From NCBI GenBank assembly GCA_021157525.1, contig JAGGWK010000049.1, positions 1 through 57,080 of the forward strand: a stretch of DNA of 57,080 nt, read 5' to 3'. This document shows positions 24,376 to 44,999 of the stretch, piece by piece (the stretch's first letter is position 1; each line of letters opens with the position of its first letter). The notes beneath the pieces are model-generated. The model did no database searches. It was given only the letters and a program-made list of their open reading frames with translations, and was not told the origin of the DNA. Made by a program: the position numbers and the translations under genes. Source of the DNA: Candidatus Cloacimonadota bacterium. GTDB taxonomy: Bacteria > Cloacimonadota > Cloacimonadia > Cloacimonadales > TCS61.

Positions 24376-24768
24376 TTATTTGATCGTAACTACGGACATA
24401 CTATTGCTTAATTGCTCAACTTTTTCTTTCAAGAGCAAACTCACCAAATCACTATCTAGCGCTATTTTATTTGAGAATCTGACCACAGAGTACTTAAGTT
24501 CCTCGAGAATATGAGTTCTTAGTGAATCATAATTCCTCTGAAACTTATGAATACCACCATCGATTTCCACAATCAGGCGCAACTCATGACAATAGAAATC
24601 TGCAATAAAAAATCGTCGCCGATTATTATGCATAAAATCGATGGGATACTGACGACGAAACTTCAATCCCATAAAATTACGATTCCTGACTAAAAGCCAA
24701 AACGCTTTTTCAGCTTCTGTTTGATTTCTTCGTAATCTACGGGCAACAGAATATGCATCCTCTCCCAT
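24376..24768 (-). CDS. DUF559 endonuclease-like protein
   Basis: 130 residues. RRNQTEAEKAFWLLVRNR (about 13-30) and LKFRRQYPIDF are the family start. The core reads IADFYC (Asp57), VEIDGG (Glu68, Asp70) and His74, fitting the PD-(D/E)XK-like fold of DUF559, which is related to Vsr mismatch endonucleases. The activity is not established. A longer frame to 24960 is rejected because it translates the neighbouring repeats into PHPRPLSREERG, a typical repeat artefact; ATG 24768 has GGAGAG five bases upstream. It sits between purH and purC-purE and has no link to purine synthesis. Confidence 0.85.
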   Translation of the reverse strand: MGEDAYSVARRLRRNQTEAEKAFWLLVRNRNFMGLKFRRQYPIDFMHNNRRRFFIADFYCHELRLIVEIDGGIHKFQRNYDSLRTHILEELKYSVVRFSNKIALDSDLVSLLLKEKVEQLSNSMSVVTIK

Positions 24769-24822
24769 TGTACTCTCCACACTATATGTTCTTGCTTTCT
24801 TGTTTTTTTCTACCTCATCCGT

Positions 24823-24891
24823 CTCTGCTTCGCAGAGCCACCTTCTCCTGCAAGGAGAAGGAACATCTCCCCTCTCCTCACGGGAGAGGGG
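24823..24891. repeat. Cluster of three hairpin palindromes beside the DUF559 gene
   Basis: Three perfect stems follow each other: CTCTGC/GCAGAG (24823-24837), CCTTCTCC/GGAGAAGG (24841-24861) and CCCCTCTCC/GGAGAGGGG (24869-24891), then GCCGGGGGTGAGG up to the purH stop. This C-rich sequence resembles a dispersed repeat found beside DUF559 genes in unrelated bacteria (from memory). Its base composition is unlike the flanking genes. Confidence 0.75.
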
Positions 24892-24904
24892 CCGGGGGTG
24901 AGGT

Positions 24905-26509
24905 CTAATGCTTAAAATGCCGCAACCCGGTAAACACCATGGCCAAGCCAAGCTGATCACAGGCTTTGATCACTTTTTTATCACGAATCGAGCCGCCGGG
25001 CTGAATGATGGTTTTGATCCCCGCTGCAGCCGCAATCTCGATATTATCCGGAAATGGGAAATATGCATCCGATACCAGAATAGCCTTGGCAAAAACGGTT
25101 TTGACATAAGCTTCAAAATCGTTGCCCGTATATTCATTTTGCAGATTCTCACGGGCTTTTTCGATAGCCAGTTTGGTGGAGATCAGGCGATTGGGCTGCC
25201 CGGCTCCCATGCCAAGCAATTGGTATCCGCCATCCTGCGTCCTGCGCACGATGACAATGGAATTGGACTTCACCTGCCGCATCCCTTTGATGCCAAATTC
25301 TATCAGCGCTCTGGATGCATCCAGATCGATGGTTCTTCGGGTCTTCAGCTCCATCTTGCTAAACATGGCTACGTCGGCATCCTGCACCAAAAGCGAACCG
25401 GCCAGATATTTCAGATCGAAAGCATTGGCAGAGTTTTGTGGATCGAAGCGAATTACCCGCAGATTTTTGTGGAACATCAGGTATTGCAACGCATCTTCGC
25501 TAAAATCGGGGGCAACCACCACTTCCACAAACTTGCGGCGGCTTTTATCCTCGTTGTTCAGCTCGAAAAATGAAACGGTGTGTCGGTTCACCGGCTGATT
25601 AAAGGCAACAATAGAGCCGAAAGCCGAAACCGGGTCGCCACCCCAGGCGTTTTCCAGAGCGACCCGCTGATCATCTGCTTCTGCCAGTCCGCAAGGATTG
25701 CTGTGTTTTATCACGCTGACGCCGAAACGTCCCAGCTCTTTTACTGCATCTATGGCACCTTGGATGTCGTTAAAATTGTTGTAAGAGAGTTCTTTGCCAT
25801 GTAAAAATACGCAGTCATAGAGGGATTTTCCGGCAGCTGCATCCCGGTAAATCCACCCCTTTTGATGTGAGTTTTCGCCATAGCGCAATGCTCTGCCGCC
25901 GGTAAAATGATAGCGCAAACTCATCGCTCCAGCCTGTTCATCCATGGTTGTGGCTATCAGAGAATCATAGTCGGCAGTGTGGTTAAAGGCTTTGCGCATC
26001 AGCTTAAACCGGGTTTTTAATGAAAGGGCGCCGTCGCTGGCTTGCAGTTCGGCAATGATGGTCTGATAATCCTGCACATCGGTGAGAGTGGCCACAAATT
26101 TGTAATTCTTGGCGGATGCCCGCACCATGGTTGGTCCGCCAATATCGATGTTTTCGATAAGGGTTGCCAGGTCGGCTCCCTGCGCTTTTACCTTGTCAAA
26201 GGGATACAGATTGCAAACCACCATATCTATCGGCTGGATGCCAAGTGCGGCAGCTTCATCGGCATCCCTTTCCCTGTCGAAGAGCAACGCGCTTTCTATG
26301 GCAAAACTGATGGTCTTCATCCGGCCGCCAAAGGCTTCGGGATTGCCGGTAACAGAGGAGATATCGACGACGTCGATCCCTGCATTCTGCAAGACCTTCT
26401 TAGTGCCACCGGTGGAGATAATCTCACAATCAAAGGTTCGTAAGGTTCGGGCCAACGCCACAATTCCTCTTTTGTCGGAAACGCTGAGCAATGCTCGTTT
26501 AATTTTCAT
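24905..26509 (-). CDS. purH: Bifunctional AICAR formyltransferase / IMP cyclohydrolase
   Basis: 534 residues, the standard length. The N-terminal MGS-like cyclohydrolase domain (about 1-200) begins RALLSVSDKRGI and has STGGTKK. The formyltransferase part has KHSNPCG, with the catalytic Lys and His of that motif, and SDAYFPFPDN near the C-terminus. It performs the last two steps to IMP. It lies six bases after ridA, and its stop abuts the hairpin repeats associated with DUF559. Confidence 0.95.
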   Translation of the reverse strand: MKIKRALLSVSDKRGIVALARTLRTFDCEIISTGGTKKVLQNAGIDVVDISSVTGNPEAFGGRMKTISFAIESALLFDRERDADEAAALGIQPIDMVVCNLYPFDKVKAQGADLATLIENIDIGGPTMVRASAKNYKFVATLTDVQDYQTIIAELQASDGALSLKTRFKLMRKAFNHTADYDSLIATTMDEQAGAMSLRYHFTGGRALRYGENSHQKGWIYRDAAAGKSLYDCVFLHGKELSYNNFNDIQGAIDAVKELGRFGVSVIKHSNPCGLAEADDQRVALENAWGGDPVSAFGSIVAFNQPVNRHTVSFFELNNEDKSRRKFVEVVVAPDFSEDALQYLMFHKNLRVIRFDPQNSANAFDLKYLAGSLLVQDADVAMFSKMELKTRRTIDLDASRALIEFGIKGMRQVKSNSIVIVRRTQDGGYQLLGMGAGQPNRLISTKLAIEKARENLQNEYTGNDFEAYVKTVFAKAILVSDAYFPFPDNIEIAAAAGIKTIIQPGGSIRDKKVIKACDQLGLAMVFTGLRHFKH

Positions 26510-26515
26510 TACACC

Positions 26516-26902
26516 TCATCCTTGATTTTTATAGGCAATGGCTTCTATTTCGATCTCCGCACCCAAGGGCAACGCAGCCACTTGCACCGCTGCACGGGCC
26601 GGACATTTTGCATCAAAATAGGTTCCATAAACGCCATTCATTTTCTTAAAATTCGCTAAATTGGTAAGATACACATTCACCTTAACCACATCTGTACGCT
26701 GCAAACCGGCTGCATCCAGGATAGCGGTGATATTCTCCAACACCCGTGCCGTCTGTTCCTCGATGGTTCCATTGAGCAACTTTTTGGTTACGGGGTCTAT
26801 GGGCAACTGACCGGAAACAAAGCAAAAATTCCCAGCCATTACAGCCTGAGAATAGGGGCCAACGGCTGCGGGAGCCAATGGAGTTTCAATGATTTTTTTC
26901 AT
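26516..26902 (-). CDS. ridA: RidA-family reactive intermediate deaminase
   Basis: 128 residues of the YjgF/YER057c/UK114 family. The conserved Arg that binds the carboxylate of the substrate is in CPARAAVQV (about 103-111), and GPYSQAV and VSGQLP are present. RidA proteins hydrolyse enamine and imine intermediates from PLP enzymes. The gene overlaps the stop of the upstream PLP-enzyme gene by four bases, a context that fits protection against such intermediates. Confidence 0.93.
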   Translation of the reverse strand: MKKIIETPLAPAAVGPYSQAVMAGNFCFVSGQLPIDPVTKKLLNGTIEEQTARVLENITAILDAAGLQRTDVVKVNVYLTNLANFKKMNGVYGTYFDAKCPARAAVQVAALPLGAEIEIEAIAYKNQG

Positions 26903-28641
26903 TTTTTCACCTTGTTTATAAAGTGTAACACATAGAAAGTCATCAGACCTTCCAAAGGTTCATCAAAGTGGGCATATTCTCCGGGAATCGATAAATCGGA
27001 CACCAGTTCATTTGCTTTTTCCAGTGCCTTTGCGAAGAGCTCGGCACCATCATTCTTTTCATTATGTGTAAACACAGGCGTATTCAGCACTGCGTCGATC
27101 GTGAGATTCACCGGCATTACATTGGTGAAATCCTTGCAATGCCAATCGCCACTCTGAAAATCAAATTGGTAGCAGGAGAGAAATTTCTCCGCATGCTCAA
27201 TCACGAAATCCACAGCCTTGATGATGTAACGAAACTCATCTTCCGAGAGGCTGTAATGTAAGTTGAGACGCACCCAGCCAGGTTTCACACCGCTGTATTT
27301 ATCCACTCCAATCACGCACTGGTAATACCGGGAAATCTCCTTGGAGATGTGTAGAAGCTTGTGACCATAAGGGCCGGCACAGGAACATCCTGCACGAGTC
27401 TGGATGCCAAAGAGATCATTCAGCAACGCCGTGATAAACTTTGGATGGAAAACTCTGTCTTTGTGCTTGATGTTAAAGGGAATGATGGTGACCTTTTTGT
27501 CTGGATCCAGAGGTCCATACAGTTGCACAGCCGGATTATCTCGATAGTGATCGTAAAATTTCTGCAGATAATAATGTTCGATCTCGTCGATGGTATCCAA
27601 ACCAACCTTCTCTTTCAGTTGAAACACCAACGCTACTTTGATCGCTTGGATAATGCCCGGAGTTCCGGGCTTTTCCCGGGTTTCGATATCTTCACAATAT
27701 TTTTCCCGATCCACCGTAACAAAATCCACTGTACCTCCGGCAGCAACCGTGGGTGGCAGGTATCTTTTGTAGATATGTTCGTTAAATACCAGGATGCCAG
27801 CCGATCCCGGCCCGCCAATGAACTTGTGGGGCGAGAGGTAAATGGCATCAAAATAGCTTTCATCATCACGGTTCATATCGATCTCGACGTAGGGTGCGCA
27901 GGCAGCAAAATCAAAGCAGGCGATAGCGCCGTGCTTATGAAGAATCCGAGCAACATCATACACCGGCGTGCGCACACCGGACACATTTGATGCCGCACTG
28001 AAGGAGCCTATTTTTTCCCTGTCGGCGTATTGGGGATCGCTAATAGTCCGCTCCAATGCATCCAGATCGATATAGCCCTCTGCATCCAGAGGAATCTCGA
28101 TAACTTCGCAGAAGGTTTGTCGCCACATAATTTCGTTGGAATGATGCTCGTAGGGGCCTACAAACACCAGAGGCAATTTCTTGTCAATGCTCTTGAGAAA
28201 GGCGGTATGGCACTTTTTTTTCCGGGCATCAGCGTTAATCAGGGGCTCTTTCAGATAATCATTTATACGTTTTTTGGTCGCCGGTGGCCAATAGACACCG
28301 ATAATCTGCTGCAATTTCGTGATGCCGCCGGTAGCACCAGTGCCATTGAAAATAATTTTACCCGATGCACCGGCATTCACGCAGCGCTTGATTTCATGCT
28401 CGGCTTCGTGTAACAGCGTAGTCATGGTTTTGCCCGTGAAGTCATCCTCGGTGTGAGTATTGGCATAACATTGAAGCAACGTGGTAAGATAATTTTCGAT
28501 GCTGTACAAAGCACGTCCGCTGGCTGTGTAGTCGGCATAGACCAGTGGCTTTGATCCAAAGCACGTTTCAAATGGCATGTTACGTCCAATAATATCACGG
28601 CGCAACCACTCCAGTTCCAAGATTCGATCTTCAATTTTCAT
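26899..28641 (-). CDS. PLP-dependent class V aminotransferase, cysteine desulfurase-like
   Basis: 580 residues, longer than classical SufS or NifS (about 400). The N-terminal half has VYADYTASGRAL and FNGTGATGG; the PLP lysine is in YLSPHKFIGGPGS (Lys273). RAGCSCAGPYG, around 430, corresponds to the active-site cysteine loop of desulfurases. About 150 extra C-terminal residues have no recognised domain. I took ATG 28641, with GAGGG six bases upstream, rather than a TTG four codons earlier. Sulfur mobilisation is possible but unproved. It is coupled to ridA and lies 18 bases after purQ. Confidence 0.85.
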   Translation of the reverse strand: MKIEDRILELEWLRRDIIGRNMPFETCFGSKPLVYADYTASGRALYSIENYLTTLLQCYANTHTEDDFTGKTMTTLLHEAEHEIKRCVNAGASGKIIFNGTGATGGITKLQQIIGVYWPPATKKRINDYLKEPLINADARKKKCHTAFLKSIDKKLPLVFVGPYEHHSNEIMWRQTFCEVIEIPLDAEGYIDLDALERTISDPQYADREKIGSFSAASNVSGVRTPVYDVARILHKHGAIACFDFAACAPYVEIDMNRDDESYFDAIYLSPHKFIGGPGSAGILVFNEHIYKRYLPPTVAAGGTVDFVTVDREKYCEDIETREKPGTPGIIQAIKVALVFQLKEKVGLDTIDEIEHYYLQKFYDHYRDNPAVQLYGPLDPDKKVTIIPFNIKHKDRVFHPKFITALLNDLFGIQTRAGCSCAGPYGHKLLHISKEISRYYQCVIGVDKYSGVKPGWVRLNLHYSLSEDEFRYIIKAVDFVIEHAEKFLSCYQFDFQSGDWHCKDFTNVMPVNLTIDAVLNTPVFTHNEKNDGAELFAKALEKANELVSDLSIPGEYAHFDEPLEGLMTFYVLHFINKVKK

Positions 28642-28659
28642 GTGTTCCCTCAAATTACT

Positions 28660-29478
28660 TTATTTTTCGATATGTTCCACGATATTGGTAAACAGCTTCA
28701 GTCCCTCTCCTTCATCTGGATGGCTGGGATTTTGTCGTTTCAGTTGACCCCAGTTTGGATGGTTATAAAAGCTCAGAAATGCTTCCGGATGGGGCATCAT
28801 ACCCAATATCTGGCCAGTGGGATCGGTGAGGGCGGCGCAATTCAGATCGGCGCCATTGGGATTGGCCGGATAGTCTGATGTCACATTCCCCTCGGCATCA
28901 CAATAGCTGAGGCAATTGAGGTTTGCATCCACTATTTTTTCCTGGATGACTGCATCTTTGATAATAAGCTTGCCTTCACCATGACGCACAGGGCAGGGCA
29001 TCATGTCGATACCATCCAGGAACGGAGTGTTACTGGCAGGATTTTTCTTCAAATAAACCCAGCGATCTTCATACTTCGCCGAGTTGTTGCGGGTAAGGGT
29101 AACTTCCTGCTGGAATGTTCCACCGGTATTAGGCAGCAATCCCATCTTCACCAAAAACTGAAACCCATTGCAGATTCCCAGGATAAATTTCCCGGCATCA
29201 ATAAATTCCTGCATCTCTTCCATGAAAGGTTTGCCGCTAGTGAGCTTGCGATATTTCATTTTATTGGCCAGAACCTTGCCGGAGCCAAGGTCGTCCCCAT
29301 AGGAAAATCCTCCGGGAAAGTTGAGGATGTCAAAGTCGTGAATGGAGACTTTCTCCAGAAATATGTCGTTCAGATGAACGATGGAAGGCTCCGCTCCAGC
29401 CAATTTATAGGCTGCGGCCATCTCTTCTTCACAGTTGATGCCGAAGCCGGTGATTACAAGTGCTTTAACCGTTTTCAT
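28660..29478 (-). CDS. purQ: Phosphoribosylformylglycinamidine synthase glutaminase subunit
   Basis: 272 residues, somewhat longer than small PurQ (about 230). VITGFGINCEEE opens the domain, the nucleophile Cys is in GICNGFQ, and the His/Glu pair is in MMPHPEAF. It supplies ammonia to PurL. purL lies upstream beyond the RAYT cassette, which means the two subunit genes were separated by that insertion. No purS gene was seen; the purL N-terminus appears to carry that role. Confidence 0.93.
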   Translation of the reverse strand: MKTVKALVITGFGINCEEEMAAAYKLAGAEPSIVHLNDIFLEKVSIHDFDILNFPGGFSYGDDLGSGKVLANKMKYRKLTSGKPFMEEMQEFIDAGKFILGICNGFQFLVKMGLLPNTGGTFQQEVTLTRNNSAKYEDRWVYLKKNPASNTPFLDGIDMMPCPVRHGEGKLIIKDAVIQEKIVDANLNCLSYCDAEGNVTSDYPANPNGADLNCAALTDPTGQILGMMPHPEAFLSFYNHPNWGQLKRQNPSHPDEGEGLKLFTNIVEHIEK

Positions 29479-29498
29479 ATATGCCTCATTTCATAGGG

Positions 29499-29540
29499 AA
29501 ACATCCTTGTAGGTCTTCCCAGACCTGCAAGGTTTGTTTC
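29499..29540. repeat. REP palindrome, copy downstream of the RAYT gene
   Basis: A 42-base element whose core pairs CCTTG-AGGTCT with AGACCT-CAAGG around a TCCC loop, with outer AAACA/TGTTT arms. It is identical over all 42 bases to 30273-30314. The two copies are direct repeats as well as palindromes and bracket the RAYT gene. Confidence 0.85.
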
Positions 29541-29566
29541 CTGTCAAATTCATTTTTTCCATAATA

Positions 29567-30133
29567 TCATTCTTCAAATAATAGTTCTTTCAAAACCATT
29601 TCCTGAGGATCATCAGCATGAACAAAGTTCTTGAAGTGTCTAACAGAGTCAAAAACAGATAAAATGCTGGTGTTTTCTATGCAAGGGTCATTCTTAAGTC
29701 CAAGGAAATTGAAATATGACGAGAACATCCAATTATCTAAATCTGTTACAATCTTGTGTTTCAGGGGATTTCTATGAATATAACGTACAAGACTCTGATA
29801 ATAGCTCACATCTGCAACGTGCAGAGCTTTGGCATTTTTTTGGAATAGCGAACCTCTGCGGCCATGGGCTTTGTTAAAAGATTTTGCATAACAATTTAGA
29901 AAATTCTTGAAGCTCTGGCGAGCTTTCTTCATATCGCAATTTTTATGAATTCGTACAAACAAATGGAAGTGATTTGGAAGAAGGCAATAGCTCAAAGTAT
30001 CCCAATGAAGTACCATGTATTCATGATATTTCTTAAGAAAATAGAGATAGTTGTTCGCCGTTACAAAAAGCTTATCGTTATCCGAATTTGCCCTATTGTA
30101 AACGTGAAAGCACTTTCCCTGTTCCAGTTGCAT
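29567..30133 (-). CDS. REP-associated tyrosine transposase (RAYT, Y1_Tnp)
   Basis: 188 residues. The HUH motif is HFH at 55-57 (LLPNHFHLFV), typical of the Y1 transposase domain. LVRYIHRNPLKH (115-126) is the family's C-terminal helix region; Tyr118 or the YY pair at 111-112 could be the nucleophile. RAYTs act on flanking REP palindromes and are usually single-copy, non-self-mobile genes. Here REP-like palindromes lie on both sides. The cassette separates purL from purQ. No frameshift or stop interrupts it, so it may be active. Confidence 0.92.
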   Translation of the reverse strand: MQLEQGKCFHVYNRANSDNDKLFVTANNYLYFLKKYHEYMVLHWDTLSYCLLPNHFHLFVRIHKNCDMKKARQSFKNFLNCYAKSFNKAHGRRGSLFQKNAKALHVADVSYYQSLVRYIHRNPLKHKIVTDLDNWMFSSYFNFLGLKNDPCIENTSILSVFDSVRHFKNFVHADDPQEMVLKELLFEE

Positions 30134-30152
30134 TTTTGCTTCTCCCTTTTTT

Positions 30153-30188
30153 GTTAGCTATCGCAAGGTTTTTGAAAACCTTGCTAAC
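30153..30188. repeat. Palindrome upstream of the RAYT gene, variant 1
   Basis: GCAAGGTTT (30163-30171) pairs with AAACCTTGC (30176-30184), with GTTAG/CTAAC (30153-30157, 30184-30188) extending the symmetry. It shares CAAGGTTT with the 42-base REP element, so it may be a diverged half of it. Confidence 0.65.
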
Positions 30189-30208
30189 ATCCCCTTGTGG
30201 CTATCAAA

Positions 30209-30235
30209 CCTTCCAGGTCTGCAAGACCTGGAAGG
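30209..30235. repeat. Palindrome upstream of the RAYT gene, variant 2
   Basis: CCTTCCAGGTCT (30209-30220) and AGACCTGGAAGG (30224-30235) form a perfect 12-pair stem with a three-base GCA loop. It shares the AGGTCT/AGACCT core with the 42-base REP elements. Confidence 0.8.
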
Positions 30236-30272
30236 AAAATCACAATATCTCACTCTTTCACTATATACTCGC

Positions 30273-30314
30273 AAACATCCTTGTAGGTCTTCCCAGACCT
30301 GCAAGGTTTGTTTC
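30273..30314. repeat. REP palindrome, copy upstream of the RAYT gene
   Basis: Identical over 42 bases to 29499-29540, in the same orientation. It ends 30 bases before the purL stop (30345). Together with variants 1 and 2 it makes a three-palindrome block on this side of the RAYT gene. Confidence 0.85.
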
Positions 30315-30344
30315 GCTCCTGATTTATTTTTTTCATCATTTCTT

Positions 30345-33300
30345 CTACTCCTGAACCAAGCCATTATCCCAGGCTTTTCGAAGAGTCGCCAGAGGAGCAT
30401 CTATCACCTTTGTATTGTGATGCAAAACAATCAGCTGCTGAATAGCGGTAACTTCGCCCAGATACTTTGCCTGAGTACCAAAGAGCGCTTCAAAAACGCC
30501 TCGGTTTTCAGGTTTCACAGACGCCACAAAACGTGAATGGGATTCGCTGAACAGAGCCACTGTGGTGCTGAAATCGCCCACTGCATCCAGACTGATGTCG
30601 GCACCCAGATTGCCGCCAAAAGCACTCTCAGTGAGGGCTACAGCCAATCCGCCATCGCTGAGGTCATGGCAGGATTCCAGCAAAGATGCATCGTTGGCTT
30701 TCATGATGGTTTCGTAGAGTTTTTTAGCTGCCTCTTTGCGCACCAGCGGCACATTGGCACCAAGCTCATCAAAGAGCTGATACAGCTCCGATCCTCCCAG
30801 CTCGTCATAGGTTTCTCCCAGTTGATACACCAGATCCCCGGGAGCTTTGAAATTGGATGTTACAGTGTGACGCACATCCGCCACTTTGGCCACCATAGAA
30901 TAGAGAATGGTGGGAGGTACGGAAATCTTTACTTTCCCGGCTTTGAAATCGTTTTTCATGCTGTCTTTGCCGGATGTGAGGGGAATATTGTAAAATGTTG
31001 ACATGTCAAACAGTGCCTGATTCATCTGCACCAATTTAGCCAGTTTCAGTTTGCCATCGGGATTTGTCTGGGGATGATACAAAGAATCTGGCACGCAGAA
31101 ATTATCATTCACTGTCCAGAATCGATTGGATGCATCCATCACATCCGGGAGCTTGCCCCCCACGGCGATGATCTGCCGCATCGCTTCGTCAAAGGAACCC
31201 GCACTCATCTGGTACGCATCGATATCACCATACCGTGGCAGAATGCCGTTTGATACGGCGATGCCTTCCCAGGAATTGAAATTCAGTCGCATCACCGCCG
31301 CATCCTGAGGTGCTTTACCATCGGGCCCCATCAGCGGTTTGATGGTGGTTTTACCCTTTACTTCATGGTCATATTGCCGGATCACATTTTCCCGGGAACA
31401 GATGTTCAGACTCCCCATAAGATCATGCAAGGTCTTGGTAAAATCCAGTTTGGATGGCAATTGTGGTTCCTGCAATTGTGGCTTTTTCCACACCGCCTCC
31501 ATATATTTACGCGGCACCCCGTTGTGTAAAAATTCCATATCCAGATACGCTACTTTTTCTGCGCCATACCGCACATCCAGATACCCGTCTGCGGTAAAGT
31601 AACCGATATCGCTCAGCTCAACTTCCCGCTGGGATGCCAGCTCAAACAGGGCTTTGCGATTTTTCTCCTCCACTACCAGAGTCATGCGTTCCTGGGATTC
31701 GGAGATGAAGATTTCCCATGGCTGCAAATTGGGATATTTGAGGGGAACTTTTTCCAGGTTTACCACTGCTCCACCGCTGATAGTCGCCAGTTCTCCCACA
31801 CTGGAGGACAATCCTCCGGCGCCGTTATCGGTGGAACACTTAATTAATCCTTTCACCGCGGCTTCCTGCAAAAAGTCACCCATTATTTTTTGGGTGATGG
31901 GGCTGCCGATCTGCACTGCCGACTGTGGCGAGTGTTCATCCAGCTCGGTCGATGAAAAGGTTGCACCATGAATGCCATCTTTACCCACACGACCGCCAGC
32001 CATGATTATCAGATCTCCGTCATCGATGGGCTTTTCCCAACTGTGTACGCCGGCAAACGTGTAGGGCATCACGGCACCGGTGCCACAATATACCAGAGGT
32101 TTGCCGCTGTACCGTTCATCAAAGATTATCGACCCGTTTATGGTGGGAACACCGGATTTATTGCCGCCGTCTTCGATGCCCTTGCGCACACCGTCCATGA
32201 TGCGTTTGGGATGCAGCTGTCCAGCCAGCAATTCTTTGTCATAGTGCGGTGGACCAAAGCAAAGAACGTTGGTATTAAAGAGCAGTTTCCCGCCGCCGAT
32301 GCCGGTTCCCAGGGGATCCCGGTTGTTACCCAGGATGCCAGTGATGGCTCCGCCGTAGGGATCTATGGCAGAGGGAGAATTGTGGGTTTCTACTTTCCAC
32401 ACAAATACCGAGTTGTCGTTGATCTTCACCACTCCGGCGTTGTCGGTAAAGATTTTCAGAAGCCAGTTGTTCCCGGCATCTGTCAGCCGTTGACGGATGA
32501 TCTCCGTGGATTTGCGGATGTAGGTTTTAAAGAGGGAATCGATATCTATCTCTTCGCCGGTTTCTTTGTTAATGTAGTGAATCATGGCCGAAAATTCTTT
32601 GTGCTTGCAGTGTTCGCTCCAGGTTTGGGCAATCACTTCCAGCTCGCAATCGGTAGGATCGGCCGGCAAACCTGCATCCCGGCGTTTTTTCTGCATCTCT
32701 TCATCGGCAAAACGGGCTTTTACCGCCAGCATCTCTTCCAGGTTTAAAGACAGCACCATCTCCCTGGAGAGCTTCACCAGCTGTTGGTCTTCGATGTCCA
32801 GACTGATGGTTTTCATCTGGTGCTCACCACTGATGCTCACATGAGGCACGTAGTCCACCTGGCCGGTAAACACACCGTATTCAAAGTGCTGAATCATTTT
32901 ATTTCCCAGCACCCGTTGGGCCAGTTCCTTCAATTCATCGTCACTCAGAGAATTTTCCAAGAGATAGATGTTTTCAGTGTAAATATGTTGCGTGGTGGTA
33001 TCCAGCGGCAAATCCAGAATATCCTTCAGGGTTTTTTGGGCCGAGACTCCCTCGTCATCCGTTACTCCAGGTTTTTGGGCCACAAGCACGAAGGATTTGT
33101 AAAAATCATTTTGATAAAAGGAGTTAATATAGACATCGTGAATCACTTCATCCTGCAAACCCTTTTTGGCAAAAGTGGCTATTTGATCTTCGGTGAGATC
33201 GTACATAATAGTGAAGATTTTACCGGTTTTCACGGCGCCGGTATCGATGCCCAAAAAGTTCTTCGCCTCTCTGCGAATTCCTTCACCAGCTACGTCTCGG

Positions 33301-33350: not shown

Positions 33351-33380
33351 ATATCGTTTTTCATTTTTTATACTATTATG

Positions 33381-33414
33381 TCAGGATGCAGGCCATCTGC
33401 GGCCCGCATCCTGA
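33381..33414 (-). terminator. Hairpin after the secreted-protein gene, built from inverted GGATGC copies
   Basis: TCAGGATGC (33381-33389) and GCATCCTGA (33406-33414) pair, with GGCC/GGCC (33391-33394, 33401-33404) continuing the stem. It lies 11 bases after the stop of the 1387-residue gene and 31 bases before purL. No strong T-run follows, so termination may be partial, allowing readthrough into purL. The arms are two copies of the hexamer over-represented in this window. Confidence 0.6.
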
Positions 33415-37588: not shown

Positions 37589-37606
37589 TTTCCCCCCTTT
37601 TTTTTA

Positions 37607-38701
37607 TTATTTATTTGTATCGGTATAGCGCAATGTCGTTGGATGACACCCTTTTGTTTCAATCGTTATCCCGGATTTTGGCAGGATGCATCCGGCAACC
37701 TGGGCTTCAAAGCCCATTTCACCCATGCGGGTTATCGCGCTGTCGGCATCTGCAGGGCGCACAATCACGATCATGCCATTACCCATATTCCATATACGAT
37801 AGGCCTGTTCTTCACTGATTTTCCCTCGCTCCTGGAGATTTTTTACAAAGTCCGCCGGTGCAAAGATGTTGGTAAGTTCCGCTCCCAGGCCGGATGCTTT
37901 GAGCGCACGGCCCAAGTTGTCTGCCAATCCACCGCCAGTGATGTGGGCGATGCCGGTAGGCAGGATGCCGTGTTCTACCAGGTCGGTAATCATGCGGGTG
38001 TAGATAATAGAAGGGGTGAGCAGCATTTCGCCCCAGGTTTTTTCATCATCATACTGCGTAGTATGCCAATCATTACCAAAGGCATCGGTCATCACCTGGC
38101 GCACCAGGGAAAAGCCGTTACTGCGGAAACCGCGGCTTTTGAGTGAAATGATGATGTCGCCGGCATGAACTGCGGTTCCGTCGATGGGCCCGTCCAATAC
38201 ATCAGGTAAGATGCCGATGGCAGTGGCGCACCAATTGAAATGCATCTTATCGCCATAGCCGTTCATGCGAGGGCCCAGTTCGGCGATTTCGCCGCCAGTA
38301 ACGGCGACCCCGGCCAGAGCAGCGGCTTCATGCAGGCCCTGCATCATTGCATCTATGATGTGATAATCCAGAAAATCCAGATCGATGATATTGGAAATGC
38401 TGGTAGCTTCAAAACCGTTGGCGGCCAGATCATCCACCGTCATGGCCATCAAATCGTGGCCGATAGTATGATAGATGCCAGTGCGCTCGGCCAGCTCTAT
38501 CTTGGTGCCGACACCGTCTGAGCTGATGCCGATGCGGGCATCTTTGAACTTGAGAACATTAGAGAATGCACCATCCACCCCGATGCGCGGCTCGCCAGCC
38601 TTTCCAGCCCGATTGACAAAGGTTTTCTTTGCCCAACTGTAGGCGTTTTTTGAGCAGGCATTGCCCAGATCGATATCTACGCCACTGTTTTTATTATTCA
38701 T
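37607..38701 (-). CDS. purM: Phosphoribosylformylglycinamidine cyclo-ligase
   Basis: 364 residues. SGVDIDLGN (6-14), SSDGVGTK and VTGGEIAELG are the AIR-synthetase motifs. It closes the imidazole ring, making AIR from FGAM. It lies 8 bases after guaB and 18 bases before the secreted-protein gene. Confidence 0.95.
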   Translation of the reverse strand: MNNKNSGVDIDLGNACSKNAYSWAKKTFVNRAGKAGEPRIGVDGAFSNVLKFKDARIGISSDGVGTKIELAERTGIYHTIGHDLMAMTVDDLAANGFEATSISNIIDLDFLDYHIIDAMMQGLHEAAALAGVAVTGGEIAELGPRMNGYGDKMHFNWCATAIGILPDVLDGPIDGTAVHAGDIIISLKSRGFRSNGFSLVRQVMTDAFGNDWHTTQYDDEKTWGEMLLTPSIIYTRMITDLVEHGILPTGIAHITGGGLADNLGRALKASGLGAELTNIFAPADFVKNLQERGKISEEQAYRIWNMGNGMIVIVRPADADSAITRMGEMGFEAQVAGCILPKSGITIETKGCHPTTLRYTDTNK

Positions 38702-38709
38702 GCTTCGTC

Positions 38710-40209
38710 CTAATTATCTTTTTGGTTATGTTCCTGGTTGTCGGAACTTTCGGTACCCTGATAGATATCGTGCACTTTGCCTTCCCGAATGGAAAGGGCA
38801 GAGACGAGCTCCAATTGTGCATTTTCGTGGAAATCCTTTATAGATGTAACACCACAGGTTCCCATAGATGACTTTATCTTGGAAAGAGTTTCTTCAAGAT
38901 TATCCCGCAGACGTCCTGCATACTCTACCATGCCTTCAACCCCTTCCACAAACTTGGCTTGATTGTAGCGTTTGCTTTTCCATTCCTGAGCTCGGGCAGA
39001 GCCTTCGCCCCAGTAGGGTTTCATCACCCGGTTGTTCACAACAATCTTGTCGGTGGGAGATTCTTCCATCCTGGCAAAATAGCGACCCATCATCACATAG
39101 TCGGCACCCAGAGCCAGAGCGATGGTGACATCTTTTGTGCTGGTCACGCCACCGTCTCCAATTACCGGAATGTATTTGCCGGTGCGTTGGAAATATTCGT
39201 CACGGGCCGCAACCACATCAATAATGGTAGTTGCCAGTCCTCGGCCAGTACCTTTCTGCTCCTGCGTGATGCAGATAGAACCGCCACCCATACCCACTTT
39301 GATAGCAGCAGCGCCGGCATCCACCAGATAGTAAAAGCCCTCTCTGGTAATGATGTTCCCACCGATAACCGGAATGTGCGGGTAGTGTTCCCGGGTCCAC
39401 AAAATGGTATCCCGCTGATACTCGGTAAAGCCGTCGGAAGAATCGATGGCAACCACATCCACCTCAGCATCGGCCAAAGCGGGAACCCGCTCTTTGAAAT
39501 CGTGAGTGTTTATGGCAGCAACGGCCAGAAGACGCTTATTATCATCGTGGACTTCCAGAGGATATTCTACCTGGTCATCAATATCTTTGCGGAAAATCAT
39601 AGATGAGAGTTTTCCATCGCTATCTACTATGGGCAGCACGGATTTATGACTTTCCAGAAGCACGCGGTTGGCCTCTTTCAGGTCGGTGATATTCACTCCC
39701 ACTTCCACCAATTCCCGTGGCACCATACGATCTCGAACCAAGGTGTCGGCATGACGGGAAAGATCGTAATCCCATTTGGAAATGAGACCCAGGAAATAGC
39801 CATTGTCATCCACCACAGGGAAGGTGGAGTGACCGGTTTCTTTGCGCACGGCAAACATTTCGGCTATCGTCATATCGGGGCTCATGGTTTTGGGTGTTAC
39901 AAATCCTGCTTTGTGCTGTTTTATTTTTTCTATCATCGCAGCCTGAGATTCGATGGTCTGGGAACAATAAATAAAGGCTGCACCACCCATTTTTGCCAGC
40001 TCAATGCCCATGGTTTCACCCGATACCGACTGCATGGCAGCCGACACCAGAGGTATATTGAGATAGTATTTTTTGTTATCGTCTTCTGCGTACACCAAAG
40101 GCGTGCGCAGAGAAATTTTATCGGGAGATGTATCCCGGGTACTGAGCCCCGGCAAAAGACGAAATTCCATCAGCGTCCGGGATGGTTCCCAGATGATTGA
40201 TTGAGCCAT
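38710..40209 (-). CDS. guaB: IMP dehydrogenase
   Basis: 499 residues. The TIM barrel is interrupted by a CBS pair (about 107-215). The catalytic Cys313 is in MGGGSICITQ and the flap that follows is TGRGLATTI. It oxidises IMP to XMP, which GuaA aminates. ATG 40209 (MAQSIIW) with GAGG five bases upstream is the better start; the longer frame to 40236 adds nine residues without a ribosome site. An 82-base gap separates it from pyrI and holds no clear terminator. Confidence 0.94.
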   Translation of the reverse strand: MAQSIIWEPSRTLMEFRLLPGLSTRDTSPDKISLRTPLVYAEDDNKKYYLNIPLVSAAMQSVSGETMGIELAKMGGAAFIYCSQTIESQAAMIEKIKQHKAGFVTPKTMSPDMTIAEMFAVRKETGHSTFPVVDDNGYFLGLISKWDYDLSRHADTLVRDRMVPRELVEVGVNITDLKEANRVLLESHKSVLPIVDSDGKLSSMIFRKDIDDQVEYPLEVHDDNKRLLAVAAINTHDFKERVPALADAEVDVVAIDSSDGFTEYQRDTILWTREHYPHIPVIGGNIITREGFYYLVDAGAAAIKVGMGGGSICITQEQKGTGRGLATTIIDVVAARDEYFQRTGKYIPVIGDGGVTSTKDVTIALALGADYVMMGRYFARMEESPTDKIVVNNRVMKPYWGEGSARAQEWKSKRYNQAKFVEGVEGMVEYAGRLRDNLEETLSKIKSSMGTCGVTSIKDFHENAQLELVSALSIREGKVHDIYQGTESSDNQEHNQKDN

Positions 40210-40291
40210 AAAAACCTCACTTTTTCTTTTAACCAAAATATCACTCAGACTTTTCAGCCAAGGATTTTTTTCTTCGGATCAGAGTCGCTTT

Positions 40292-40750
40292 TTAAACGAT
40301 CATCTCCACATCATCGATTTCGTATTTTTTCTCACAATAGGCACATCGTACGATTTTCTTATCCTCCGACGACAGAGTAAACCGTGATTTAATGCCCTCG
40401 ATATTGGTGATACACTTGGGGTTTGGGCAGACGATAAGACCATCAATTTCCCGGGGAATGGTGAGTTGCTGTTTGCTCACAACAGCAAAATCTTTGATGA
40501 TAATAAGCGATGCTTCAGGAGCCAGCATGGCAATCACATTTACCTCATCGGCAGAGAGCACACGGTTTTCAATTTTAATAATATCTTTTCTGCCCAGTTT
40601 TGCACTGGTGAGATTCATGCCGATCATCACAGAATTTTCCCCGGTAAGATTCACCAGATCAACCACTTTCAGAACCTTCCCCGCCGGAATGTGATCGATC
40701 ACAGTTCCATTTTTTATCGCGTTTACCTTTATCAGTTTCACCGGTTTCAT
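40292..40750 (-). CDS. pyrI: Aspartate carbamoyltransferase regulatory chain
   Basis: 152 residues, the size of E. coli PyrI. The zinc site is Cys108, Cys113, Cys136 and Cys139 (CPNPKC and CAYC), almost the same spacing as in E. coli. The N-terminal allosteric domain binds nucleotides. Together with pyrB it predicts an allosteric dodecameric enzyme. Its ATG follows the pyrB stop directly (40751/40750). Confidence 0.95.
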   Translation of the reverse strand: MKPVKLIKVNAIKNGTVIDHIPAGKVLKVVDLVNLTGENSVMIGMNLTSAKLGRKDIIKIENRVLSADEVNVIAMLAPEASLIIIKDFAVVSKQQLTIPREIDGLIVCPNPKCITNIEGIKSRFTLSSEDKKIVRCAYCEKKYEIDDVEMIV

Positions 40751-41653
40751 CTATACCTCCCCCATCAAGATGGAAATGATTGCTTGACGCGTATATACGC
40801 CATTTTTCGCCTGCTGAAAATAATAGGCATATTGGGTTACATCCACGTCGGTGTGAATCTCGTCAACCCGTGGCAGGGGATGCATCACCCGCAGATTATC
40901 CTTTACCCCATCCAACATGGATTTGCGCAGGATGTATGATCCTCTGGCCTTTTCATACTCTTCGGGATCAGCAAAGCGCTCCCGCTGCACCCGGGTTACA
41001 TAAAGAATGTCCAGGTCGTCGAGGTTTCCATCCAGCTCCGGACATTCTTCAAACTGGATGTTTTTCTCTGCCAGATCGTCCTTTATGTAGGATGGCATCT
41101 GCAAAAAAGAGGGTGAGAAGAATTTGAATTTTGCGCCAAACAGCGCCATAGCCTGCGCCAGAGAATGTACGGTGCGACCGAATCGCAGGTCTCCCGCAAG
41201 GCCGATAGTAAGATTTTCCAATGTACCCTGAGTTTTTACGATAGAGTACAAATCAAGCAGCGCCTGAGTAGGATGCTGGTTTGCACCATCACCGGCATTT
41301 ACCACCGGAATGTCCACCACTTCTGCTGCATAGCGGCTGGAGCCTTCGATGGGACTGCGCATGATGATGATGTCGGCATACTGGGCGATAGTGAGCAGAG
41401 TGTCGGCAAAGGACTCGCCCTTTTGCGCCGAGGTATTTTTGGTTCCGCTCATTATCACGGTGTTGCCATTCATCCGCTTCATGGCAGTATCAAAGGAAAA
41501 CATCGTACGGGTGGAAGGTTCAAAGAAGAGCAGTGCGGCCAGTTTACGCTGCATATCAGGCACGATGTTGCCTTTTTCTATTTCTCCGGCAATGTCCATT
41601 AAATGAAGGATTTCATCCTTCGATAAATCTCGCATTGAGATCAGATTTTTCAT
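40751..41653 (-). CDS. pyrB: Aspartate carbamoyltransferase catalytic chain
   Basis: 300 residues. The carbamoyl-phosphate site reads FEPSTRT, AGDGANQHPTQ binds both substrates and HPLPRVDEI is the C-terminal signature. It makes carbamoyl aspartate, the second step of pyrimidine synthesis. The start lies 34 bases after the pyrE-pyrF fusion, in a gap with a short ATGAGAA repeat. Confidence 0.96.
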   Translation of the reverse strand: MKNLISMRDLSKDEILHLMDIAGEIEKGNIVPDMQRKLAALLFFEPSTRTMFSFDTAMKRMNGNTVIMSGTKNTSAQKGESFADTLLTIAQYADIIIMRSPIEGSSRYAAEVVDIPVVNAGDGANQHPTQALLDLYSIVKTQGTLENLTIGLAGDLRFGRTVHSLAQAMALFGAKFKFFSPSFLQMPSYIKDDLAEKNIQFEECPELDGNLDDLDILYVTRVQRERFADPEEYEKARGSYILRKSMLDGVKDNLRVMHPLPRVDEIHTDVDVTQYAYYFQQAKNGVYTRQAIISILMGEV

Positions 41654-41684
41654 CGTTTCTCCTTATCTATCTTTCTCTCTTTTT

Positions 41685-41702
41685 TTCTCATTTCTCATTT
41701 CT
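41685..41702. repeat. ATGAGAA-type repeat at the pyrE-pyrF stop
   Basis: Read on the minus strand, AGAAATGAGAAATGAGAA spans the last codons of pyrE-pyrF and its TGA. The same sequence occurs at the end of pyrC and after pyrD. Confidence 0.6.
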
Positions 41703-43061
41703 ACCCCTGTAGGCCGTCCATGCCCGTTGGCGATAGATTTTTGCTTCGGCTTGTGGGTCTGTAGCATTCAGGATGCCGCGGCCTACGATGATACAATCTG
41801 CGCCACCGCTCACCGCATCTTCCACGCTGATATACTGTTGTCCCATGGCGTCAGACCCTCTTTCCAGCTTCACGCCGGGCATCAGCAATACCTGGTTTCC
41901 GGGGAATTTTGCCTTAAACCGCCGGATGTCTTCCACCGAGCTGCCATGGCCGATAAAACCGGCAACCCATTGAGGATTTTTCTTGGCCGCTTCAAAGCAT
42001 TTGCGGGTGTACGTTTCATTTAGCAAATTCCCTTTGCTGCTCATGCGGGCAAGTACAAACCCGGCGTGACCTTCGATGCCTTCAAAAAGTCCTTTCAAAA
42101 TCATCTCCCCGGCAACCATGTGAACGGTTACATACTCCGCCCAGTCTGCAATTTTGTACACGCCGTTACGAAATTGATGCCGCACCGTGTTTCCAATATC
42201 GGCAAATTTACGGTCTTCAAAGATCAGGAAATTCTGGCGGGATGCATACTGCTGCAGCCGGGGTACGAAGGTTTCGTCATAGTCGTCGATGATATCCACG
42301 TGGGTTTTCAGCATCACGATTTCATCACCAACTTTATCCAGCATGCCGAAGAACTCTTTCTGAGTTGTTACATCAAGCGAGAGCACAAGGTTAGATTGTT
42401 TTTCTTTCATCTTGTCCAAAAGCTTCTGTGTGAGGGGATTGGTATAGACATCCTGCTCTACCGGCTTGGCAAGACTGCTTGTAAAGGCTTCCACTTCTTT
42501 CACTTTTTCATCGGAAATAAGTCCCTTGCTTTGTAGCAATTCCACGATTTCATCCAGAGAAATAAGACTGTGCAGATTGTATCCCATTGCGCCCAATTCC
42601 TCTGCGCCATTGGCACTGCGATCGATCACTACAACAAAATCTTTTACAACTACACCTTCTTTTTCGTAAGCTTCGGCAGTTTCTACCTTGCTGGCGCCTG
42701 TGGTGATAAGATCATCGATTACCAGGCATACATCGCCTTTTTTGTATTGGCCGATCACGTTTTTTCCCGTGCCGTAAGCCTTCTCTTCCTTGCGCATGTA
42801 GATGAGGGGTTTGTTGAGTTTGGCCGATACCAGCGACGCTATAGGCAGCGCCGTGTAGGGGATGCCGGTGAGCACATCAAATTTCATGTCTTTGATTTTA
42901 TCCGCCAGTAATTGGGCCACGCCGTCCAAAATCCCGGGATAGCTGATCATATCCCGCAGATCAAAGTAAAAGGGCGATTCCAATCCGCTTTTGAGGATGA
43001 AGGAACCAAATTTCACCGCGCCGATACGTTGCAGCTCCAACACAAATTCTTCTGTTGTCAT
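41688..43061 (-). CDS. pyrEF: Fused orotate phosphoribosyltransferase and OMP decarboxylase
   Basis: 457 residues with the domain order of eukaryotic UMP synthase. The OPRT part (about 1-200) has the PRPP motif VIDDLITTG (114-122). The decarboxylase part (about 215-457) has KTHVDI (252-257) and FEDRKFADIGNT (281-292), with Asp283, Lys285 and Asp288 as the catalytic DxKxxD. FEDRKFADIGNTV is the eukaryotic/fungal form, while most bacterial PyrF proteins read DLKFHDIPNT. It catalyses the last two steps to UMP. Confidence 0.94.
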   Translation of the reverse strand: MTTEEFVLELQRIGAVKFGSFILKSGLESPFYFDLRDMISYPGILDGVAQLLADKIKDMKFDVLTGIPYTALPIASLVSAKLNKPLIYMRKEEKAYGTGKNVIGQYKKGDVCLVIDDLITTGASKVETAEAYEKEGVVVKDFVVVIDRSANGAEELGAMGYNLHSLISLDEIVELLQSKGLISDEKVKEVEAFTSSLAKPVEQDVYTNPLTQKLLDKMKEKQSNLVLSLDVTTQKEFFGMLDKVGDEIVMLKTHVDIIDDYDETFVPRLQQYASRQNFLIFEDRKFADIGNTVRHQFRNGVYKIADWAEYVTVHMVAGEMILKGLFEGIEGHAGFVLARMSSKGNLLNETYTRKCFEAAKKNPQWVAGFIGHGSSVEDIRRFKAKFPGNQVLLMPGVKLERGSDAMGQQYISVEDAVSGGADCIIVGRGILNATDPQAEAKIYRQRAWTAYRGRNEK

Positions 43062-43094
43062 ACTCTCTCCTTGCTTCGTTCACTCTTATATTTA

Positions 43095-43127
43095 TCATTC
43101 TTCATTCTTCACTTCTCATTTCTCATA
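43095..43127. repeat. ATGAGAA/GAATGAA-type repeat tract at the pyrC stop
   Basis: On the minus strand TATGAGAAATGAGAAGTGA and then two GAATGA units run through the pyrC stop codon into the gap before pyrE-pyrF. The end of pyrC (YEK-stop) is itself written in the repeat. Confidence 0.55.
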
Positions 43128-44378
43128 CACTTCCCCATCAATGATGGTATAAGCCAACGATGCGGCTATAGACATCCCATCAAAGGGAGAGTATTTTGCC
43201 TTGCTTTGGAAAAAACCACTGATCACCGGCGGAAAATTGTGAACATCGAGAATCGCCAGGTCTGCCAGATAACCGGGTTCTATTTTTCCCACGTTGCTGA
43301 TACCAAAAATTTCAGCTGCATTGCCGGCAATGAGTTTGTAGTATGCATCCAGAGAAATCTCGCCATCTGCCACTAATTGATAGGTCATGGGTATGGCTGT
43401 CTCCATTCCGGGGATACCCGATGGTGCCGTGGCATATTCCTGAAGTTTTTCGTCTAAACTGTGGGGTGCATGGTCGGAGCCAAGACAGTCGATCACACCG
43501 CGTTTCAGTGCATCAATCAGCGCAAGACGATCGGCTTTGGCCCGGAGAGGCGGATTCACCTTTCCAAAATTTCCTACCAGCTTCAGCATTGTGTCATCCA
43601 GCAAAAGGTGATGGGGCGTAACTTCGCAGTAAATGTGGTCACACTGGGCCTTGGCAGCTTCGATGAGAGACAGCTCTTCCTGAGTGGATACGTGGCAAAG
43701 ATAGAGTTTATTACCCACCTTTTGCGCCAGATCAAGCACCAGTTTTGTGCCCTCGATAGCCGCCTCGCGATGGCGGATCATGCCGTGAAATTCGATTTCC
43801 ATCTCTGGCGCCATAGCCGCCCATTTATCCAGTACCGGCTGATACTCGCTATGCACCAGCACTACTTTGTTAAATTCCTTTGCCAGTTGAAAAACAGACT
43901 CCAGCAGTGCAGGGTTGGTAACTACTTCATTGGAACTTGATCCTGCCAGAAAGACCTTTATCCCCACCACATCGGCAGGATTATCAGCCAGAATAGCCCG
44001 CAATTCATCCAAGTTATCGGTAGTAGCGCCCAGATGCAGATAGTGGCGTACATAAGCATCTTCAGCTGCTTTGCGTTTTGCATCCAGGCCGGATGCTGAT
44101 GTGGTAGCCGGGATAGTGTTTGGCATATCCATGATGGTTGTAATGCCCCCGGCGAGAGCTGCGTAGGATGCGGTTTTCCATGTCTCCTTGTAGGCAGCTT
44201 CAAGATCACGCACATGCACATGAGGATCTATCATGCCGGGAAGTACAACCAGATCGGTGCAGTCCAGCAGCTCATCGTGTTCCGGCTTCTCTGAGCCAAC
44301 GTAGGAGATAATATTGTTATCTATGAGTATGTTGCACTGGCCAGATGCCGTGGTGCAATTGGTTAATAATCGTTTCAT
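43116..44378 (-). CDS. pyrC: Dihydroorotase
   Basis: 420 residues, the long (type I) dihydroorotase. DPHVHVRD (51-58) gives the first two metal-binding histidines, His53 and His55. VGIKVFLAGS carries the lysine expected to be carboxylated, and LYLCHVS and GSDHAPHS the other ligands. It cyclises carbamoyl aspartate to dihydroorotate. The next gene upstream is the GxxExxY insert, which separates it from pyrK. Confidence 0.94.
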   Translation of the reverse strand: MKRLLTNCTTASGQCNILIDNNIISYVGSEKPEHDELLDCTDLVVLPGMIDPHVHVRDLEAAYKETWKTASYAALAGGITTIMDMPNTIPATTSASGLDAKRKAAEDAYVRHYLHLGATTDNLDELRAILADNPADVVGIKVFLAGSSSNEVVTNPALLESVFQLAKEFNKVVLVHSEYQPVLDKWAAMAPEMEIEFHGMIRHREAAIEGTKLVLDLAQKVGNKLYLCHVSTQEELSLIEAAKAQCDHIYCEVTPHHLLLDDTMLKLVGNFGKVNPPLRAKADRLALIDALKRGVIDCLGSDHAPHSLDEKLQEYATAPSGIPGMETAIPMTYQLVADGEISLDAYYKLIAGNAAEIFGISNVGKIEPGYLADLAILDVHNFPPVISGFFQSKAKYSPFDGMSIAASLAYTIIDGEVYEK

Positions 44379-44408
44379 GTTACCTCTTTTTTACCGTGGA
44401 ATATTTTT

Positions 44409-44446
44409 ACCACGAATGCTTACTAATTTAAACACTAATTTTCACA
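44409..44446. repeat. Left flanking repeat of the GxxExxY gene
   Basis: ACCACGAATG (44409-44418) is the exact inverse of CATTCGTGGT (44980-44989) on the other side of the gene. It is followed by CTAATTTAAACACTAATTTTCAC, AT-rich and similar to the inverse of the right-hand flank. The rest of the gap 44379-44480 holds two TTTTACCGT stretches and no gene. Confidence 0.55.
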
Positions 44447-44480
44447 GATCAGTTCAGTTTTTTTTTACCGTAGACGTTTA

Positions 44481-44852
44481 TCACACCACAATCCGTTCAT
44501 ACTTCAAACTACTTGTTTTGAAGTTCAAAATGATACCGAGACGTTTTCCAGTAGCCTTAAGGTAGTTTATCACTTGTGCCCGATGAATATCGGAAATTGC
44601 ATCAACGGTTTTCAATTCAAAAATCACATCATTCTCTACAAGTATGTCGCAGATATAATTACCAACGATTTGTTCTTCAAAATGGACAGAGATTGCTTGT
44701 TGCTCCTGTGCAAAAACACCTTCACGATCAAACAAAAGCATCAACGCATTTTCATATACTTTTTCTAGAAAACCGGGTCCCAGTTTGGAATGCACTTCCA
44801 TAGCTAATCCAACAATTTTGTATGACAGTTCAGGATACAGTAACTTGCTCAT
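44481..44852 (-). CDS. GxxExxY protein (PD-(D/E)XK nuclease superfamily)
   Basis: 123 residues. The name-giving motif is GFLEKVY (Gly27, Glu30, Tyr33), preceded by EVHSKLGPG. The nuclease-like core reads CDILVEN (Asp69) and FELK (Glu79, Lys81), the D...ExK pattern of the superfamily. The ending YLKATGKRLGIILNF is diagnostic. Function is unknown; these genes are scattered in many genomes next to short iterated repeats. It is inserted between pyrK and pyrC and has its own ribosome site (GGAGG). Confidence 0.92.
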   Translation of the reverse strand: MSKLLYPELSYKIVGLAMEVHSKLGPGFLEKVYENALMLLFDREGVFAQEQQAISVHFEEQIVGNYICDILVENDVIFELKTVDAISDIHRAQVINYLKATGKRLGIILNFKTSSLKYERIVV

Positions 44853-44927
44853 GCCTCCTCCTTACCTACAAAACAGGATGCCAAATACATCACACATAGC
44901 GCAAGCACTTATCCCATAATACGAATA

Positions 44928-44994
44928 AATTTGTGCTATTCGTGGTTTCACTTCCATAAACATTAATACTAATTCGTGCCATTCGTGGTTTCTC
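44928..44994. repeat. Right flanking repeats of the GxxExxY gene, two direct copies
   Basis: Two 24-base copies, 44928-44951 and 44971-44994, follow AATT[T/C]GTGC[T/C]ATTCGTGG and then TTTC[A/T]C, matching at 21 of 24 positions. The second copy includes the inverse of the left-hand arm. The gap 44853-44999 contains no gene. Confidence 0.75.
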
Positions 44995-44999
44995 TTTTC

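Follow-up and report, generated by a model that had tools for sequence, protein, structure and literature searches.

Predicted nuclease genes of the GxxExxY and DUF559 families are associated with their own flanking repeats across many phyla

We analyzed a stretch of 57,080 nucleotides (contig JAGGWK010000049.1, hereafter the window), which is part of a 2.2-Mb metagenome-assembled genome of a Candidatus Cloacimonadota bacterium. Three small nuclease genes, a DUF559 gene (PF04480), a RAYT gene and a GxxExxY gene (PF13366), lie beside repeats within a nucleotide-biosynthesis cluster of this window. We found that GxxExxY and DUF559 genes are each associated with a repeat type of their own, in Cloacimonadota and in other phyla. 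The best explanation, which is probably right though far from assured, is that they form two independent classes of nuclease-plus-repeat cassette, that the gene-less copies of the repeats derive from the cassette, and that the predicted enzyme acts on its own repeat. To our knowledge, PF13366 and PF04480 are large and very common bacterial families without an agreed role.

GxxExxY genes were present in 85 of 125 Cloacimonadota genomes, often in many copies. To compare the flanks within this phylum, forty regions of 11-20 kb were used, with size-matched genes as controls. GxxExxY genes had left and right flanks that matched each other in inverted orientation much more strongly than those of the controls (median score 23 versus 13, p = 1e-7). 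The top-scoring controls were mostly real cases, including extra GxxExxY copies, genes of intervening-sequence proteins and one Y1_Tnp gene, so the control distribution is biased conservatively. A cross-phylum set of 80 loci, which represent about 20 groups of bacteria and archaea, was obtained by scanning GTDB genomes with a GxxExxY consensus. Most of these loci carried the words ACC-RC-RRAG-n-CRCRRAG-n-CRCRRAG, read inward from either end. Under a fixed rule, the correctly oriented word pair was found on both sides of 51 of 73 loci. The wrongly oriented pair was found at 6 of 73, and the rate in control windows was 2.8% per strand. In addition, the word pair was found at none of 17 DUF559 loci, and the words at none of 28 loci of intervening-sequence protein genes. 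The motif was framed after its own loci had been read, and thus the fair out-of-sample tests are these two zero counts and the model scans described below. Furthermore, flank similarity dropped with protein distance (partial Mantel r = -0.29 with GC held, p = 0.001), and the same was found when only pairs from different phyla were used (r = -0.27, p = 0.001).

Two junctions beside purE/C were then compared in 29 relatives. Some were empty (5-36 bp), some held inverted-repeat elements that lack a gene and measure about 90-140 bp, and others held a GxxExxY cassette of 450-590 bp. For instance, the purEC/purD gap contained a full cassette in the genomes G080, G093, G072, G099, G101, G095 and G098. 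Three GxxExxY subfamilies, which were separated in the tree, each had their own repeat: CACAGAG for type A, GCGGAAAG/GCAAAG for type B and AACTAAC for type C. Types A and B were each found in both of the gaps flanking purE/C. Moreover, G093 had type A in gap 2 and type B in gap 1, and G098 had types B and C, with the subfamilies supported by the tree. Because the same sites and hosts carry different types, the repeat type is dissociated from site and host, yet not from the protein subfamily. Two of the gene-less elements had ends of mixed type: one in gap 2 of G095 (L223) joined a B left end to a C right end, and one in gap 1 of G102 (L224) joined a B left end to an A right end. These mixed ends suggest nesting of, or recombination between, element types.

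To estimate the distribution of the repeats apart from the gene, we used R1, a sequence model of the GxxExxY terminal repeat built solely from other phyla. R1 was found in 54 of the 85 Cloacimonadota genomes with PF13366 and in 7 of the 40 without it (p = 1e-6). Acidobacteriota, the phylum of the Bryobacteraceae genome G125, served as an independent sample, and there R1 was found in 35 of 46 genomes with the gene and 7 of 73 without it (p = 8e-14). The genomes are related, so these Fisher p values overstate independence. R1 copies reached at least 54 in one Cloacimonadota genome and at least about 60 per genome overall, versus a few GxxExxY genes; these counts are lower bounds, since the best 60 or so candidates per genome were scored. 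A degenerate repeat pattern run over the source genome of the window returned little. Meanwhile, of 72,556 plasmid records, just 8 contained GxxExxY, and this near absence points to spread mainly within chromosomes, as for RAYTs. Between co-directional neighbours, 27 units were in sense and 4 in antisense orientation, which fits selection against operon disruption; many other units lay between convergent or divergent genes. Two arrangements were observed besides. The single-contig Cloacimonadota genome G001 has six GxxExxY genes within about 40 kb, with one Y1_Tnp gene among them (L105, G001:C1:786001-806000). At L347 (G279:C12:27700-28500), a GxxExxY cassette is bordered on each side by a diverged copy (about 100 bp) of the start of the neighbouring dihydropyrimidinase-like gene, which makes a long flanking duplication.

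DUF559 genes were found in 64 of the 125 Cloacimonadota genomes, again often in many copies. In other phyla, they had pyrimidine/purine hairpins on either side, for example CCCTCTCCC..GGGAGAGGGTTGGGGTGAGGG before the gene and CCCTCACCCCAACCCTCTCCC..GGGAGAGGG after it. Hairpins on both sides were found at 22 of 36 DUF559 loci versus 2 of 75 GxxExxY loci. In addition, left and right flanks of the same DUF559 gene had a similarity of 21, versus 12 for mismatched pairs, and flank similarity was again correlated with protein distance (r = -0.25, p = 0.0005). The inverted-repeat score first applied to whole 300-bp flanks in Cloacimonadota gave a modest separation (p = 0.003), because the repeats are self-palindromic and often one-sided; the hairpin measure was therefore used instead. 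In Sinorhizobium, the DUF559 gene L260 has a double-palindrome repeat at its 3' end; this repeat has hundreds of copies in Rhizobiaceae, and 558 places in 117 Rhizobiaceae records match the query region. The repeat appears to resemble the rhizobial intergenic mosaic element RIME1. The RIME repeats are not known to have a nuclease of their own.

Both proteins have complete predicted catalytic sites. The PD-(D/E)XK site of GxxExxY consists of E30, D69, E79-x-K81 and Q93. Its AlphaFold2 model has a predicted local distance difference test score (pLDDT) of 93.7, and the closest folds are lambda exonuclease and Cas4, with a template-modelling (TM) score of about 0.57. No solved relative of GxxExxY was found by sequence. 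DUF559 has the invariant residues E19, D56, E67, H73 and D80. Both by profile and by fold, it matches 3hrl, a Neisseria protein, and the I-Bth0305I catalytic domain (3r3p; profile E = 1e-5 and TM 0.56-0.72). DUF559 is thus homologous to the homing endonuclease I-Bth0305I. The initial annotation had called DUF559 PD-(D/E)XK-like, but residues, profile and fold fit the Vsr/EDxHD nucleases better than the generic PD-(D/E)XK enzymes. A DUF559 gene has been assigned to the EDxHD family before (PMC9403480). Furthermore, one Caulobacter DUF559 protein causes DNA damage and the SOS response in vivo, and a link to mismatch repair with a Vsr-like role was proposed for it (PMC12907096).

In the window, family profile matches supported all three nuclease genes that the initial annotation had placed in the cluster (Table 1). 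They occupy the purH/purEC, purQ/purL and pyrC/pyrK junctions of a compact purine/pyrimidine cluster, and the neighbours of DUF559 are purine genes. The remaining gaps of the cluster measure -4 to 74 bp; the exception is the 177-bp purEC/purD gap. This gap holds a gene-less GxxExxY-type element, a fourth feature of the window that was missed in the first reading. The longer 194-aa open reading frame (ORF) of DUF559 (24376-24960) reads back through the adjoining repeat, and position 24768 is the most likely gene start. With this start, the gene stays clear of purH, and the repeat falls between the two genes. The three hairpins reported beside DUF559 were recovered, enclosed in an outer stem, and none of 200 shuffled sequences was equally stable. 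The repeat is one-sided, lying only upstream of the gene, and its plan of outer stem and hairpins recurs beside DUF559 in other phyla. The RAYT gene has the HFH motif and the catalytic tyrosine, and its NF047646 match is below the curated cut-off. The palindromes around it are exact copies, as had been claimed, and they are the sole direct repeat of at least 20 nt in the window. This gene and its palindromes are an ordinary member of the TIRtron/REPtron type. The inverted pair around GxxExxY consists of ACCACGAATG at 44409 and CATTCGTGGT at 44980. In the source genome as a whole, DUF559 occurs once, GxxExxY twice and Y1_Tnp three times, and the second GxxExxY and the remaining Y1_Tnp genes are also embedded in their own repeats.

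Table 1. Positions of the nuclease genes and repeats in the window
Feature	Position	Strand	Remark
Gene-less GxxExxY-type element (TCACCGCTAAGTGCGCGAAGGCGCTAAG / CTTGGCGTTTTAGGGAGCTTTGCGGTGA), purEC/purD gap	22821..22933		
DUF559 gene, 130 aa, ATG at 24768	24376..24768	-	PF04480 E 1e-28
DUF559-associated repeat, outer stem TACCTCATCC/GGGGGTGAGGT around three hairpins	24811..24905		DNA-parameter fold z -6.2
42-bp palindrome, copy 1 (70-nt unit, 86% overall)	29499..29540		identical to copy 2; fold z -7.6
RAYT/TIRYT-type HUH (Y1_Tnp) gene	29567..30133	-	PF01797 E 5e-5; NF047646 E 4e-14
Two more related hairpins near RAYT (AAGGTTTTTGAAAACCTT; ACCTTCCAGGTCTGCAAGACCTGGAAGG)	30165..30235		
42-bp palindrome, copy 2	30273..30314		identical to copy 1
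GxxExxY left terminal repeat (ACCACGAATG...ACTAAT...ACTAAT)	44409..44440	+	10-nt perfect inverted match to 44980-44989
GxxExxY gene, 123 aa	44481..44852	-	PF13366 E 1e-37; TIGR04256 E 3e-40
GxxExxY right terminal repeat, two tandem ACCACGAAT.GCACRAAT-type copies	44928..44996	-	26-nt direct copies, 88%

The preferred explanation can be set out as follows. A cassette would consist of one small predicted endonuclease gene within its own repeats, which are inverted iterated words for GxxExxY and multi-hairpin palindromes for DUF559, and gene-less repeat copies would arise from it. The nuclease would recognise its own repeat and make a cut or nick, and repair by the host would then spread or maintain cassettes, as well as derivatives without the gene, inside the chromosome. 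RAYTs acting on repetitive extragenic palindromes (REPs), or homing endonucleases acting on their own genes, may serve as the working analogue. We prefer this explanation because of the pairing of subfamily and repeat, the concentration of gene-less copies in genomes with the gene, the presence or absence of elements at orthologous junctions, and the complete catalytic sites.

Several observations weigh against it. In the cross-phylum set, about 30% of GxxExxY loci have the word on one side at most, and R1-type repeats are missing from several of the Cloacimonadota genomes that carry the gene. The short inverted and iterated repeats around the GxxExxY gene of the window are real but weak, and their left-right inverted score of 13 equals the control median; the GxxExxY case is carried by the related loci, and the window by itself is insufficient. 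For DUF559, the controls are less strong, since 12-16% of windows contain such pyrimidine/purine hairpins, a common feature. No target-site duplication was found at the clean gene-less copies of G279 (L343-L346, L352 and L353). A seemingly clean empty site in Sinorhizobium, between dsbA and smc (96% identity), was on alignment a partial internal deletion of DUF559. Lastly, contig C1 of G271 (L363-L404) contains more than 25 near-identical IS5-like copies with an internally deleted GxxExxY unit and 54-bp terminal repeats, with full-length versions present besides. These had been considered as self-mobile miniature inverted-repeat transposable elements (MITEs), and this was rejected since the GxxExxY copies lie inside the IS5-like element, between the end of the transposase gene and the right end. 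The amplification in G271 is therefore carriage by that element, and GxxExxY units can also spread as IS5-like cargo.

The lack of a target duplication at clean gene-less elements does not favour ordinary DDE transposition, and homing-like or replication-coupled spread may be the more likely route. Target-site duplications were also sought at 40 repeat copies in G107, G116 and G118, but these were intergenic mosaics whose ends could not be defined. Full GxxExxY cassettes are likewise mosaic, and in the intergenic gaps several repeat types are overlaid on one another. The initial annotation had proposed that DUF559 and GxxExxY are analogous repeat-associated nucleases, each creating, moving or processing repeats of its own. 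The association stood: repeat type is family-specific, exceeds the controls and follows the protein subfamily (51/73, 22/36 and the Mantel results); orthologous sites without the element exist in relatives; and the GxxExxY repeats are not equally frequent in genomes without the gene. The functional part did not gain such support: neither a target-site duplication nor a strain-level gain of a cassette was found, the one amplified case (G271) is hitchhiking, and creation, movement or processing of the repeats by the nucleases is a proposed activity.

Among the other explanations, the strongest holds that the repeats are independent mobile elements moved by another enzyme and that the nucleases are captured passengers. 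Gene-less copies do far outnumber genes, the G271 unit rides an IS5-like element, and the gaps are layered with repeat types, down to mosaic left and right ends. However, a one-to-one pairing of subfamily and repeat, across phyla and within one genome, is not expected of passengers, and the 450-bp cassette has no second conserved enzyme. We thus regard this explanation as unlikely, although it deserves serious attention. The nucleases might instead serve the host by removing extra copies of the repeats, with the flanking copies as substrate or regulator. Complete catalytic sites and the tie of the Caulobacter DUF559 protein to mismatch repair (PMC12907096) would suit such policing, but patchy presence, several copies per genome, many different insertion loci, and repeats that are commoner in genomes with the gene than in those without it make it improbable.

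A system at the RNA level, in which the inverted repeats form long stems that are processed out of operon transcripts like the intervening sequences of 23S rRNA and the protein acts on RNA, seems less probable still. It would account for units inside operons that seldom run antisense to their co-directional neighbours (27 sense, 4 antisense), and the four-helix-bundle intervening-sequence proteins offer a parallel architecture; against it, GxxExxY and DUF559 resemble DNA nucleases, and the neighbours of many units are convergent or divergent. Repeats are common between the genes of these genomes, and small ORFs could meet them by chance. Nevertheless, size-matched controls and cross-family swaps stayed at background and the intervening-sequence protein loci gave 0/28 for the GxxExxY words, so that we give chance coincidence hardly any weight.

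The cassette arrangement resembles known systems. RAYT/REP systems (REPtrons and REPINs) and TIRtrons/TIRYTs likewise have one small chromosomal endonuclease gene, its own flanking palindromes or inverted repeats, and gene-less copies (PMC3733652, PMC3116915, PMC8266576). However, RAYTs belong to the HUH tyrosine enzymes and act on single strands, whereas GxxExxY and DUF559 are unrelated predicted metal-type nucleases, and a REP is a hairpin with a GTAG tag, whereas GxxExxY repeats are iterated words. GxxExxY and DUF559 lack the HUH feature, and thus they are not RAYTs but a different enzyme in the same arrangement. DUF559 shares profile, catalytic fold and residues with EDxHD homing endonucleases such as I-Bth0305I (3r3p), but it is free-standing, outside introns and surrounded by palindromic repeats. 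Similarly, the model fold and catalytic residues of GxxExxY are like those of PD-(D/E)XK enzymes of the Cas4, lambda exonuclease and RecB type; yet GxxExxY is a stand-alone protein of 120-130 aa, its TM score is only about 0.57, no iron-sulphur extension was seen, and no CRISPR linkage was found among the loci inspected. The gene-less copies are comparable to MITEs and insertion sequences in their size of about 90-140 bp and their terminal inverted repeats, but no target duplication was found, and the only nuclease of the unit is PD-(D/E)XK, with no transposase-type enzyme.

We found no published description of GxxExxY or DUF559 repeat cassettes in the open-access literature, which was the scope of the search; the novelty of the nuclease/repeat pairing is provisional. 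GxxExxY is mentioned there in two papers, in passing, four iterated-word strings had no occurrence, and the open-access DUF559 papers, some of them represented by their titles, contained no mention of flanking repeats.

The pairing gives a candidate role to PF13366 and PF04480, and to repeats such as ACCACAGAGACACAGAG or CCCTCACCCC..CCTCTCC that are familiar as intergenic clutter: the protein would be the enzyme of the repeat. It accounts for the presence of these genes inside otherwise tight operons, and it makes the origin of non-REP intergenic repeats directly testable. In addition, naturally diversified pairs of protein and DNA site could give a readout of nuclease specificity. More broadly, GxxExxY, DUF559, four-helix-bundle intervening-sequence proteins and RAYTs, which are unrelated small proteins, may all exemplify one broad kind of minimal selfish cassette in bacteria and archaea, each propagating or maintaining a repeat family of its own, iterated or palindromic. 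Together they would be the hidden source of many common intergenic repeats. We offer this idea tentatively, and at present we lean slightly against it.

Genes of the four-helix-bundle family 23S_rRNA_IVP (PF05635) were found in 102 of the 125 Cloacimonadota genomes. Their flanks contain inverted arrays of iterated words of 7-9 bp (GGTGTTAGGTGTTAGG, GAGGTCGAGAGGTC and AACGGTAAACGGTA; L311-L340, L079, L096 and L101). The median inverted score was 24 versus 13 in controls (p = 7e-12), and none of them had GxxExxY words. Meanwhile, in two relatives, G080 (L222) and G079 (L243), the purH-purEC gap is occupied by an ORF (about 138 aa) that is unrelated and has no repeats; it carries the motif CxxAxxxLQVL..GMNGAGR..AQCGLVEG and is C_GCAxxG_C_C-like.

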